DNA from: Tibeticola sediminis
GTDB taxonomy: Bacteria > Pseudomonadota > Gammaproteobacteria > Burkholderiales > Burkholderiaceae_C
DNA length: 64,000 bases
NCBI RefSeq assembly: GCF_003843835.1
Contig: NZ_RKQL01000003.1
Location: 168,681-232,680, forward strand
Reading direction: 5' to 3'
The translations under genes and the position numbers were made by a program. Below the pieces are notes generated by a model. The model was not told the origin of the DNA. It saw only the letters and a program-made list of their open reading frames with translations, and did no database searches. Shown piece by piece: positions 6,093 through 9,411 of this stretch; the stretch's first letter is position 1, and each line of letters starts with the position of its first letter.

Positions 6093-6404
6093 TCAGAACG
6101 TGACCGACTGCGCACGCAGGTCCACGGTCACGCGGGTACGGCCGAGCGCGGCGCAAGCGGCGCGCGCAAAGGCCTGACCCCAGGCCGGGTCCGTCCAACG
6201 GGTGGAACCGGCGGCTTGCGCGATGGCGAGAACCTTGTCGGCCAGCAGAACCTTGCCGCTGGCTCGCAGGGGCTCGCAGTCGAGTTCGATGAATGCGGCG
6301 TCCAGCCAAGCGCGCGCCGCCTCGGGCGTGAGCGAGGCCGGATCATCGGACGCATAAAAAAATTCCTGGCCGTCTGGGCCGATCAGCGTAAGGCCTTGGT
6401 ACAT
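6093..6404 (-). CDS. Small conserved hypothetical protein
   Basis: A 103-residue soluble protein with no motif I recognise. It starts MYQGLTLIGPDGQEFFY and has an even, globular composition. It lies downstream of the DAHP synthase gene on the same strand, separated by a short palindromic element, and converges on mpl. Codon use matches its neighbours, which supports it as real. No function is proposed. Confidence 0.65.
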   Translation of the reverse strand: MYQGLTLIGPDGQEFFYASDDPASLTPEAARAWLDAAFIELDCEPLRASGKVLLADKVLAIAQAAGSTRWTDPAWGQAFARAACAALGRTRVTVDLRAQSVTF

Positions 6405-6507: not shown

Positions 6508-7638
6508 TCATTTTGCCTGTTTGCGCCTCGCCCGAACACCCTGGGCGAGCATGTCGAGCACGCCGACCGAATCGGCCCAGCCGAGGCAGGCGTCGGTGAT
6601 GCTCTTGCCATACTCGAGCGCAGCGACGTCGTCCTTGCCCGCGGTGAATTTCTGTGCGCCCGGCTGCAGATGGCTCTCGACCATGACGCCGAAGATCTGA
6701 CGCGAACCGGCCGCGAGCTGGCCGGCGATGTCGCGGGCCACCTCGATCTGGCGCTCATGCTGCTTGGCGCTGTTGGCGTGGCTGCAATCGACCATGAGCG
6801 AGGGGTGGAGCTTTGCGGCTTCGAGCTCTTTGCACGCCGCAGCGACGCTGGCCGCGTCGTAGTTGGTGTGTTTGCCGCCGCGCAGGATGACGTGGCAATC
6901 CTTGTTGCCCTTGGTGCGCACGATGGCGACCTGGCCGTTTTTGTGCACCGAGAGGAAATGGTGCGGACGCGCCGCGGCCTGGATGGCGTCGATGGCGATC
7001 TTGAGGTTGCCGTCGGTGCCGTTTTTGAAGCCGATCGGCGCCGACAGGCCCGAGGCGAGCTCGCGGTGCACCTGGCTCTCCGTCGTGCGCGCGCCGATGG
7101 CGCCCCAGCTGATGAGGTCGCCGATGTACTGCGGGCTGATCACGTCGAGGAACTCGCTACCGGCCGGCAGCCCCAGGCGGTTGATTTCGATGAGCAGTTG
7201 GCGCGCGATGCGCAGGCCTTCGTCGATGCGGTAGCTCTCATCGAGGTAGGGGTCGTTGATGAGTCCCTTCCAGCCAACCGTCGTGCGCGGCTTCTCGAAA
7301 TAGACCCGCATGACGATTTCCAGCGTGTCGGCATGGCGTTCGCGCTCGGCCTTGAGGCGGCGGGCGTAGTCGATGGCTGCGGCCGGGTCGTGGATGGAGC
7401 ACGGACCGATGACCACCAGCAGCCGGTCGTCTTTGCCCGACATGATGTCGTGGATGCGGCGACGCGTGTTGGCGATCAGTGTCTCGACGGGGGTGCCGCT
7501 GATCGGGAAGAAGCGGATCAGGTGTTCGGGCGGCGGCAGCACGGTGATGTCCTTGATGCGTTGGTCGTCGGTCTGGCTGGTGCGGTCGGCGGGACGCGGC
7601 GACCAGACGTCGGTGCTGGCCTGAGGCTTGGGGGTCAT
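6508..7638 (-). CDS. aroG: 3-deoxy-D-arabino-heptulosonate-7-phosphate synthase, class I
   Basis: A 376-residue class I (AroG/AroF/AroH type) DAHP synthase. Motifs visible are LLVVIGPCSIHDP, MRVYFEKPRTTVGWKGLINDP, GARTTESQVHRELASG and MVDCSHANSAKQH, covering the PEP, erythrose-4-phosphate and metal sites. It condenses PEP with erythrose 4-phosphate, the first step of the shikimate pathway to Phe, Tyr and Trp. AGGAG lies about 8 bases before the ATG. The upstream 180 bases carry an aromatic leader peptide and a terminator, so expression is probably set by attenuation. The symbol is by family; the feedback-specific isozyme cannot be assigned by eye. Confidence 0.95.
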   Translation of the reverse strand: MTPKPQASTDVWSPRPADRTSQTDDQRIKDITVLPPPEHLIRFFPISGTPVETLIANTRRRIHDIMSGKDDRLLVVIGPCSIHDPAAAIDYARRLKAERERHADTLEIVMRVYFEKPRTTVGWKGLINDPYLDESYRIDEGLRIARQLLIEINRLGLPAGSEFLDVISPQYIGDLISWGAIGARTTESQVHRELASGLSAPIGFKNGTDGNLKIAIDAIQAAARPHHFLSVHKNGQVAIVRTKGNKDCHVILRGGKHTNYDAASVAAACKELEAAKLHPSLMVDCSHANSAKQHERQIEVARDIAGQLAAGSRQIFGVMVESHLQPGAQKFTAGKDDVAALEYGKSITDACLGWADSVGVLDMLAQGVRARRKQAK

Positions 7639-7692
7639 CGGAGGGCTCCTGGAATCGAACGTTGGGATGAGGGAAGGTTGTGAGCGGCCAAG

Positions 7693-7729
7693 AAAAAACC
7701 GCCGGGCGGTGACGCTGCGGCGGTTTTTT
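7693..7729 (-). terminator. Attenuator terminator in the DAHP synthase leader
   Basis: On the minus strand an A6-CCGCCG arm (7729-7718) pairs with CGGCGG-T6 (7704-7693), ending in six T. It lies between the leader peptide stop codon and the DAHP synthase start, so it is an intrinsic terminator inside the transcribed leader. The 3' arm hexamer CGGCGG is repeated exactly inside the leader coding region at 7766-7771, which could pair with the 5' arm and block the terminator. Confidence 0.88.
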
Positions 7730-7746
7730 CGAGGGGTTGGGGGTGC

Positions 7747-7818
7747 TTACGCGTTCGCCTCTCGTCCGCCGGGGACAGAGAACCAAAAGTAAAAACCAAA
7801 AGCGAAGCGCAACAACAT
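7747..7818 (-). CDS. Aromatic amino acid leader peptide, 23 residues
   Basis: The minus strand encodes a 23-residue peptide starting MLLR and containing FAFGFYFWF, that is five Phe, one Tyr and one Trp within nine codons, then SVPGGREANA and TAA. It precedes the terminator by about 18 bases and the DAHP synthase gene by about 110. This is the layout of a ribosome-mediated attenuator: stalling at aromatic codons when charged tRNA is scarce would leave CGGCGG (7766-7771) free to form an antiterminator; a ribosome reaching the stop would cover it. No good ribosome binding site is visible before the ATG, a weak point. Confidence 0.85.
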   Translation of the reverse strand: MLLRFAFGFYFWFSVPGGREANA

Positions 7819-7854
7819 GCGAGGAACTTTAGCACATGAATCTTGAAGCCAGGC

Positions 7855-9315
7855 TTACGCGGTGCCGCCCACGGTCAGCCCGTCGATACGCAGGGTGGGC
7901 TGGCCCACGCCCACGGGCACGCTCTGCCCTTCTTTGCCGCAGGTACCCACGCCGGAGTCGAGCCGCATGTCGCGCCCGATCATGGAGACGCGCTTGAGCA
8001 CGTCGGGCCCGCTGCCCACCAGCGTCGCGCCCTTGACCGGGTATTGGATCCGGCCGTTTTCCACCCAGTAGGCTTGGCTCGCGCTGAAGACGAACTTGCC
8101 GCTGGTAATGTCGACCTGGCCGCCGCCGAAATTGGTGGCGTAGAGGCCGCGCTTGATGCTGGCGACGATTTCCTCGGGCTCGTGCGCGCCGCCGAGCATG
8201 TAGGTGTTGGTCATGCGCGGCAGCGGCACATGGGCGTAGCTCTCGCGGCGACCGTTGCCGGTGGGCTTGACGCCCATGAGGCGGGCGTTCGTGGCATCTT
8301 GGATGTAGCCCTTGAGGATGCCGTCCTCGATCAGCACCGTGCGCTGAGTGGGATGGCCTTCGTCATCCACGTTGAGCGAACCGCGCCGGTCGGCGAGGGT
8401 GCCGTCGTCGAGCACGGTCACGCCCTTGGCCGCCACGCGCTGGCCGATGCGCCCGGAAAAGGTGCTGGAGCCCTTGCGGTTGAAATCGCCCTCGAGGCCG
8501 TGGCCGATGGCCTCGTGCAGCAGGATGCCGGGCCAGCCCGGGCCGAGCACCACGGTCATCTCGCCCGCCGGCGCGGGACGCGCCTCGAGATTGGTGAGCG
8601 CGGCGCTGACCGCCTCGTCCACATACTGCGCAAGCACCGCATCGTCGAAGTAGCCCAGGCCAAACCGGCCGCCGCCGCCGGCAAAGCCCGACTCCCGCCG
8701 GCCCTGCTGCTCGGCAATCACCGAGACCGACAGCCGTACCAGCGGCCGCACGTCGGCGGCGAGCGTGCCATCGGCGCGCGCGATGAGCACCACGTCGTAC
8801 TCCGCCGCGAGGCCAGCCATCACCTGCACGATACGCGGGTCGCGGCTGCGCGCCATCTGCTCCACCCGCCCGAGCAGCGCCACCTTGGCGTTGCTATCCA
8901 GCGTGCCGATGGGGTCCACCGGGCCATAAAGCTTGCGGCTGCGCGCCACCTTGCGCGCTGGCGTGCGCACACGCCGGTTCTGCGCGGCCTGGGCGATCGA
9001 GCGCACGGTGCGGGCGGCATCCATCAGGGATGCCTCGGAGATGTCGTCCGAGTAGGCAAACGCGGTTTTCTCGCCGCTGACCGCCCGCACGCCCACGCCC
9101 TGGTCGATGCTGAAGCTGCCGGTCTTGACGATGCCTTCTTCGAGGCTCCAGCCTTCGGAACGGGTGTATTCGAAATATAGGTCGGCGTCGTCCACCTGAC
9201 GCAGTCGGATCTCCGCGAGCGCGCGGCTCAGGTGCGCCTCGGTCAGGCCAAACGGTTCGAGCAGCAGCGCCTGCGCGGTGGCCAGGCGCTCGAGGGTGGG
9301 TTCACGCGAAATCAT
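7855..9315 (-). CDS. tldD: Metalloprotease TldD
   Basis: A 486-residue TldD protein. The zinc motif is HEAIGHGLEGD at 267-277, of the HExxxH class typical of TldD rather than TldE. Other family marks are GYIQDATNARLMGVKPTGNGRRESYAHVP (positions about 353-381) and the C-terminal GKEGQSVPVGVGQPTLRI. TldD pairs with TldE (PmbA) to cleave modified peptides and unfolded substrates in the cytoplasm; no tldE lies in the window. The ATG at 9315 is chosen as the usual family start; the frame is open further up. Its last codons probably overlap the promoter of the DAHP synthase leader transcript. Confidence 0.95.
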   Translation of the reverse strand: MISREPTLERLATAQALLLEPFGLTEAHLSRALAEIRLRQVDDADLYFEYTRSEGWSLEEGIVKTGSFSIDQGVGVRAVSGEKTAFAYSDDISEASLMDAARTVRSIAQAAQNRRVRTPARKVARSRKLYGPVDPIGTLDSNAKVALLGRVEQMARSRDPRIVQVMAGLAAEYDVVLIARADGTLAADVRPLVRLSVSVIAEQQGRRESGFAGGGGRFGLGYFDDAVLAQYVDEAVSAALTNLEARPAPAGEMTVVLGPGWPGILLHEAIGHGLEGDFNRKGSSTFSGRIGQRVAAKGVTVLDDGTLADRRGSLNVDDEGHPTQRTVLIEDGILKGYIQDATNARLMGVKPTGNGRRESYAHVPLPRMTNTYMLGGAHEPEEIVASIKRGLYATNFGGGQVDITSGKFVFSASQAYWVENGRIQYPVKGATLVGSGPDVLKRVSMIGRDMRLDSGVGTCGKEGQSVPVGVGQPTLRIDGLTVGGTA

Positions 9316-9411
9316 GGCTTCATTGTAGGCAGCCGCGGCCCGCCGCCCCGGCGCAGGGAATTGCGGGTGACGCCGAACCCGCCCCCAAATCCGCCCCTCA
9401 CTCAGCACCCG

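Follow-up and report, generated by a model that had tools for sequence, protein, structure and literature searches.

A Predicted Trivalent Attenuator Upstream of the DAHP Synthase Gene aroG in Burkholderiales

Synthesis of every aromatic amino acid passes through 3-deoxy-7-phosphoheptulonate (DAHP) synthase, whose control is usually attributed to repressors and feedback inhibition. In the 64,000-nucleotide stretch of the Tibeticola sediminis genome analyzed here (the window), the gene for this enzyme, aroG, is preceded by a short open reading frame (ORF) rich in aromatic codons and by an intrinsic terminator. Considering that attenuation of aroG had been predicted from this arrangement, we asked whether that interpretation holds and which amino acids such a device would sense. 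The sequence and a fold model support it, with a modelled off state that is not clean. It is highly probable that the element is a ribosome-mediated transcription attenuator of aroG, which would respond jointly to charged tRNA-Phe, tRNA-Tyr, and tRNA-Trp.

Organization of the aroG Leader Region

The original prediction had read a leader, a terminator, and a DAHP synthase gene in succession, and every one of these elements was found, on the minus strand (table 1). The leader is exactly as it had been described, 23 codons with five Phe, one Tyr, and one Trp. Two scans saw the terminator with its run of six T ahead of the DAHP synthase gene, whose product matched TIGR00034 at 538.7 bits (cut-off 173.2). 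Of the two copies of the hexamer CGGCGG, one lies within the leader (7771-7766) and the other forms the terminator 3' arm (7704-7699), and each is able to pair with CCGCCG at 7723-7718; such pairing had been anticipated for the leader copy, and both its position and its complementarity agree. The region 7690-7830 on the minus strand has a folding z-score of -3.34 against shuffled sequences, and the folds contain hairpin 1:2 together with the terminator. Hairpin 1:2 would protect the antiterminator strand while its 5' arm is free of a ribosome.

Table 1. Features of the aroG leader region in the window
Feature	Position	Strand	Basis or remark
Extended -10 promoter element TGC-TAAAGT (TGn 7834-7832, hexamer 7831-7826)	7826..7834	-	7 nt 5' of leader start
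Predicted transcription start, leaderless or nearly so	7818..7819	-	-10 spacing
Leader peptide ORF MLLRFAFGFYFWFSVPGGREANA (codons 7818-7750, ATG 7818-7816) with stop TAA (7749-7747)	7747..7818	-	ORF list, alignment, joint test
Predicted core sensing codons Phe-Tyr-Phe-Trp-Phe	7780..7794	-	Fold model and composition
Hairpin 1:2, UUCUC.GUCC / GGAC GAGAG	7759..7782	-	Folding; GAGAG conservation
Antiterminator strand CGGCGG within leader, complementary to terminator 5' arm	7766..7771	-	
Terminator 5' arm CCGCCG, common to antiterminator and terminator	7718..7723	-	
Intrinsic terminator (A6 7729-7724, 5' arm 7723-7718, 3' arm CGGCGG 7704-7699, T6 7698-7693)	7693..7729	-	
Shine-Dalgarno AGGAG of aroG	7646..7650	-	Sequence reading
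aroG, class I DAHP synthase (3-deoxy-7-phosphoheptulonate synthase), predicted regulated gene	6508..7638	-	TIGR00034
Upstream neighbour tldD (metalloprotease)	7855..9318	-	Stop at 7855; 36 nt 5' of leader start

Immediately 3' of aroG, the same strand carries a 103-codon open frame (6093-6404) without a match in NCBIfam or Pfam. Elsewhere in this genome, an aromatic leader was looked for upstream of the DAHP synthase paralogue (L189) and none was found. Upstream of a trpE homologue (L206), one short ORF with three F/Y/W per eight codons, about 310 nt 5' of the apparent trpE start, is not convincing, and a 2.2-kb region running up to and into the prephenate dehydratase frame (L207) yielded no aromatic leader.

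Conservation and Promoter of the Leader

Homologous aroG loci came from three sources: 40 relatives gave 30 loci, named genome contigs 80 (the best 80 among 593), and a sample of the order 84. These 194 loci are not independent, some genomes being present twice, as a handle and as a named contig (for example, L014/L074 and L017/L088). The named loci come chiefly from Comamonadaceae and neighbours, that is, Hydrogenophaga, Variovorax, Acidovorax, Polaromonas, Rhodoferax, Limnohabitans, Aquabacterium, and Ideonella, with one from Solimonas. An upstream ORF was called an aromatic leader if it had at least four F/Y/W in 12 codons, and 103 of the 110 first-round loci possessed one. A hairpin with a T-run accompanied it at 101 of these 103; of the remaining two, L029 passed the terminator part of the joint test and L051 did not. 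This joint test, for an aromatic leader together with a hairpin and T-run, was positive at 128 of the 194 loci, paralogues and distant homologues included: 102 of the 110 first-round loci and 26 of the 84 from the order sample. The positives include each of the 24 genomes taken from the window's family. The 66 loci that failed include many distant homologues and paralogues, as well as L051, which carries a leader but has a misassigned gene start; no DNA upstream of the gene is available for L076. The occurrence of an aromatic leader and hairpin upstream of aroG is not due to chance. The check that the original prediction had set itself, whether relatives keep the leader frame, terminator, and antiterminator, was positive.

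The leader was absent at the Polynucleobacter loci L096, L099, L103, and L108 and at the similar L114 and L115. At L096, L099, L114, and L115, aroG starts at most about 30 nt after the preceding frame, which leaves no room for a leader. For a search by model, 93 sequences were prepared, of which 75 entered alignment A1 and RNA model R1; R1 holds only six terminator pairs and amounts to a sequence profile. R1 matched at full length directly before aroG in all 24 family genomes, a count without evidential weight because 23 of them are in the alignment of R1 and match by construction. Such matches were also found upstream of aroG in 5 of 16 genomes from other families of the order, none of which is in the alignment, and weak matches elsewhere (E 0.001-0.1) were mostly partial pieces from the terminator side. 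Across 184 genomes of the class, under stricter filters, R1 gave two matches beyond the family's two, both in one other family outside the order and before a DAHP synthase-like gene (L265 at G357:C8, where the gene was checked, and L266 at G221:C33).

The aromatic leader at L265, SFYFWYYFPKPLAEEG, and its terminator resemble the aroG element, and the L266 version would begin with GTG; the element in these two genomes would reflect either common descent or transfer. In Solimonas sp. SE-A11 (L069), aroG is 80% identical to that of the window and has a leader of the same kind, which suggests a joint transfer of gene and attenuator or a mislabelled record.

The ribosome binding site of the leader had been regarded as poor, and in fact no Shine-Dalgarno sequence lies upstream of it. 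A standard sigma-70 promoter scan of the window region found no promoter; the promoter is of the extended -10 type, and its position offers an explanation for the weak site. RNA polymerase usually starts about 6-8 nt downstream of the -10 box. Since the box ends 7 nt before the ATG, the transcript would start at the AUG or 1-2 nt earlier, and the ribosome binding site would be weak because the leader mRNA is leaderless. Among the 128 positive systems, a TANNNT box was found 5-9 nt before the leader start in 112 (6, 7, or 8 nt in 108), with TGN ahead of it in 104; the same box test gave 0 of 83 at the assignable aroG starts. The 16 systems without the box belong mostly to other families. Shine-Dalgarno-like tetramers preceded only 3 of the 128 leader starts compared with 63 of the 83 aroG starts. 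Both marks of a leaderless start, a -10 box some 6-8 nt ahead of the start codon and no Shine-Dalgarno sequence, are thus found, and the leader mRNA is probably leaderless or nearly so.

Pairing of Leader and Terminator

The motif expression used for covariation could read 115 of the 128 systems; 13 were unreadable, some of them via the terminator detector taking a neighbouring hairpin. Where the terminator arm was CCGCCA, the base before the leader GGCGG was T in 14 of 20 systems (C in 3, A in 2, and G in 1), and where it was CCGCCG, that base was C in 66, A in 17, and T in 9 of 92. The association of CCGCCA with a leader T has a Fisher p of 8e-8, a value not corrected for kinship, and the T-A pair was also seen within the window's family (L067). 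Five systems departed inside the motif: L024 and L028 compensate (AGCGG with CCGCU), L054 gives a G-U pair, and in L127 and L181 the expression had caught an overlapping first AGCGG. Covarying stems had been named beforehand as a check; the pairing was supported, but the covariation proved modest, two of the five inner departures being compensated. The 127 modelled systems correspond to 123 distinct ones. Mean duplex energy of the leader was -14.75 with its own arm versus -13.76 (sd 0.11) with permuted arms, and 0 of 300 permutations were as low; the own duplex was stronger than that with the other-type arm in 98 of the 123 distinct systems. When the consensus arm was swapped into 27 non-consensus systems, the mean was -15.14 versus -14.95 for their own arms, a swap that costs nothing because G-U pairs are tolerated. 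The covariation supports the proposed leader-terminator pairing, yet alone it is no proof.

In the fold model, each leader was folded up to the terminator 5' arm with the nucleotides beneath the ribosome masked (127 systems, L020 left out). Mean capture of the arm by the leader was 0.93 for a stall one codon before the last aromatic codon, 0.70 at that codon, and 0.43 one codon on, and the stall value exceeded those of later positions in 125 of the 127 systems. With the leader shuffled downstream of the core, stall capture was 0.57, and the observed value was above the shuffle mean in 123 of the 127. Ribosomes placed further upstream, 8 to 12 codons before the last aromatic codon, likewise gave high capture (0.81-0.89). 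For completed or absent translation, which in an attenuator favours the terminator, capture was 0.29 two to five codons past the core, 0.54-0.75, depending on the footprint, at the stop codon, and 0.54 without a ribosome (0.55 in shuffles). The core mean exceeded the stop state in 85 and the ribosome-free state in 106 of the 127 systems. In the window, capture was 0.98 one codon before the last Phe, 0.06 on it, 0.30 ribosome-free, and 0.86 at the stop. By this model, a ribosome halted on the control codons would favour an antiterminator whose formation precludes the terminator.

On a simple view, a ribosome at the stop codon would keep the antiterminator from forming, but the model did not reproduce this. 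The stop codon lies 6 to 16 codons past the last aromatic codon, so that a ribosome waiting there would often leave the antiterminator strand free. Because equilibrium folding misses the off state, efficient termination would need either hairpin 1:2 to form first, in co-transcriptional order, or quick release of the ribosome.

An ORF with product codons (128 of 194 loci), a terminator between leader and gene (101 of 103), complementary arms, conservation, and promoter spacing are all given by sequence. We infer that translation, stalling, termination, and its relief would proceed as follows. Driven by the extended -10 promoter in the gap between tldD and the leader, transcription would begin at the AUG or no more than about 2 nt from it, and the leader would be translated without a Shine-Dalgarno site. 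A ribosome stalled at a Phe, Tyr, or Trp codon of FYFWF would cover the 5' arm of hairpin 1:2; the freed leader strand CGGCGGACGAGAGG would pair with CCGCCG, the terminator would not form, and aroG would be transcribed. With all three charged tRNAs ample, the ribosome would proceed, cover the leader strand, and depart, whereupon hairpin 1:2 would re-form and the terminator would halt transcription ahead of aroG.

Alternative Explanations and Related Attenuators

The mixed Phe/Tyr/Trp run to which the original prediction had drawn attention turned out to be the rule: F is present in 128, Y in 122, and W in 108 of the 128 leaders, and 105 have all three. The aromatic fraction was 0.88, 0.91, and 0.86 at the three codons preceding the last aromatic codon, which itself (offset 0) is aromatic by definition and carries no information; the drop in capture at that codon, by contrast, is a result. 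In the core, the aromatic class is maintained, while the codons and the exact residues vary. Phe is encoded by TTT in 65% of cases in the leaders versus 20% in the aroG coding sequences (128 systems), and this bias may slow decoding or hold the stretch free of structure. An attenuator that senses mainly Phe, with Tyr and Trp as near-neutral fillers, is unlikely but deserves consideration. The core residues comprise 523 Phe versus 197 Tyr and 114 Trp, 20 of the 128 cores lack Trp and 6 lack Tyr (3 of these being Phe only), and the effect of aroR in Corynebacterium glutamicum is reported under Phe limitation (PMC11802643). Against such a reading, however, stand the 105 cores with all three residues, and in the model the Tyr and Trp codons fall inside the stretch where a stall would capture the terminator arm.

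The downstream part of the leader behaves differently from the core. The motif [GA]GCGG is present in 119 leaders and is read in frame 0 (81, as GG), frame 2 (34, with an Ala codon mid-motif), or frame 1 (4, as RR); as every frame is used, the motif is conserved at the RNA level. GAGAG was found in 96 of the 128 systems, and in 12 of these it overlaps or follows the stop codon. Conservation thus differs between the two halves of the leader, preserving amino acid class in the core and RNA in the downstream part. It is on this evidence that an arrest-peptide switch of the TnaC/ErmCL type, in which nascent ...FWFSVPGG would stall the ribosome on binding a free aromatic amino acid or another ligand, appears very improbable. 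One subset does show a strikingly conserved SVPGG tail, and a stop codon immediately after GG occurs in some members; nevertheless, the tails across members read PGGRE, TAAGE, PLAEE, PRRSS, or PRAVE, and the core varies too. The tails vary because one RNA is read in different frames, which a specific arrest sequence would hardly tolerate.

It is scarcely credible that the hairpin merely ends tldD transcription and that the aromatic ORF is incidental. The leader does follow tldD on the same strand after only 36 nt, and a hairpin with T6 is a good terminator. However, a tldD terminator requires neither an aromatic ORF, nor a third arm copy, nor a promoter box, and thus the recurrence of the first two at 128 of 194 loci and of the box in 112 of 128 systems counts against it; moreover, L096, L099, L114, and L115, where the leader is missing, have no terminator between the preceding frame and aroG. 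Just as hard to credit is a small protein with its own function and a separate terminator, for the ORF is conserved and hydrophobic, but its C-terminal halves vary between members and track the RNA motif rather than the protein.

The preferred reading, ribosome-mediated attenuation, is in itself of a classic kind, with one described case at a DAHP synthase gene. In pheL-pheA, pheST, and trpL-trpE of Escherichia coli, product codons lie in the leader, the hairpins are mutually exclusive, and the terminator is intrinsic; each responds to one amino acid through a leader led by a Shine-Dalgarno sequence. The aroG element has this attenuator logic in common with them and differs in the genes, the number of amino acids, and the Shine-Dalgarno sequence. 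A multivalent attenuator is known in ilvL of E. coli ilvGMEDA, which serves branched-chain amino acids; a single leader there monitors more than one end product of a branching pathway, as the aroG leader would, with branched-chain amino acids in ilvL and aromatic ones in aroG. An attenuator at aroR-aroF of C. glutamicum was reportedly described by Neshat et al. in 2014. Two papers (PMC11802643; PMC4046766) describe there a leader peptide with Phe-Tyr-Phe before a DAHP synthase gene and read-through by stalling under Phe limitation. The claim of the original prediction that DAHP synthase attenuation is little documented holds, but aroR/aroF is a precedent (PMC11802643; PMC4046766). By these descriptions, which leave the RNA arms aside, both systems have a leader peptide with aromatic codons upstream of a DAHP synthase gene, whereas C. 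glutamicum is an actinobacterium whose described run lacks Trp and the FYFWF core of the window includes it. PMC11802643 also names the pheL-pheA, pheST, and trpL-trpE attenuators of E. coli and gives the DAHP synthase genes of that species as repressor-controlled.

Leaderless leader peptides with mapped starts are described for trpL (peTrpL) of Sinorhizobium meliloti (PMC7298713) and for leuL, trpL, and ilvL of Streptomyces lividans (PMC8079986). These likewise begin at the start codon, in other classes and at other genes, and for the aroG leader the start is predicted. Burkholderia cenocepacia has leaderless transcripts (PMC4603805), and the main text of that paper contains no match for "attenuat" or "leader peptide". 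In the part seen of the survey PMC3766115, only His, Leu, Thr, and Trp leaders are treated, and the main text of PMC2965389 has neither aroG nor DAHP. In Rfam, the aroG element of the window region matches no family (best RNAI, 21.1 bits, gathering 47), and none of the six aroG elements among nine further loci matched at E 0.5; the leuA leader at L218 is weakly like Leu_leader RF00512 (26 bits, below the gathering value of 50), to which the aroG element has no match. No aroG attenuator of Burkholderiales was found in Rfam or in the open-access literature searched. As far as this search extends, three features are new: a core trivalent for Phe, Tyr, and Trp, a leaderless design, and occurrence across Burkholderiales; an earlier report is possible.

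The promoter of the aroG leader recurs at a second gene. The string TGTGCTANANT-N5-8-ATG had 53 matches in 60 family genomes and 9 in the reversed control. An assignment script, based on the presence of a short ORF and on aroG or leuA sequence marks up to 620 nt away, divided the 53 into 24 aroG leaders, 20 leaders upstream of leuA, and 9 others, a number equal to the 9 of the reversed control and thus at background level. One of the 20 leuA leaders (L253) is Leu-poor. Two types of leuA gene are represented, and both code for 2-isopropylmalate synthases (one representative each checked). In the window's genome, the single string match is at aroG, and leuA (TIGR00973, above cut-off) has a leader of the same design, MNFAFPLLLLRLSDGRGS, preceded by TGTGATACAGT. 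Wherever the region after a Leu-rich leader was read (L208, L209, L211, L218, and L245), a terminator hairpin followed. This leuA element is apparently a leucine attenuator of the same design. Leu-rich leaderless leaders with the same extended -10 were observed upstream of leuA at L218 (G001:C1:2800927), L208, L245 (in the window's own genome, G000:C1), and 18 further places; an example of such a leader is MNFALLSLLLLPDGRSR.

We tentatively propose, as slightly less likely than not, that Burkholderiales may have a class of leaderless attenuators with a shared extended -10, TGTGCTACATT, ending 5-8 nt before the AUG, which would control the committed enzymes of different amino acid pathways (aroG in response to Phe, Tyr, and Trp, and leuA in response to Leu). 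The leaderless start could be a working part of such attenuators: the first ribosome would load at the 5' end on a fixed schedule, which would set the timing between polymerase and ribosome and tie attenuation to 70S initiation. The recurrence of the leaderless design at leuA makes it testable whether attenuators use leaderless initiation to fix this timing. The promoter string also offers an inexpensive way to find such elements: of its 53 matches in 60 genomes, 44 lie at these two attenuators. At aroG, a single short RNA would sum the supply of all three end products through tRNA charging.
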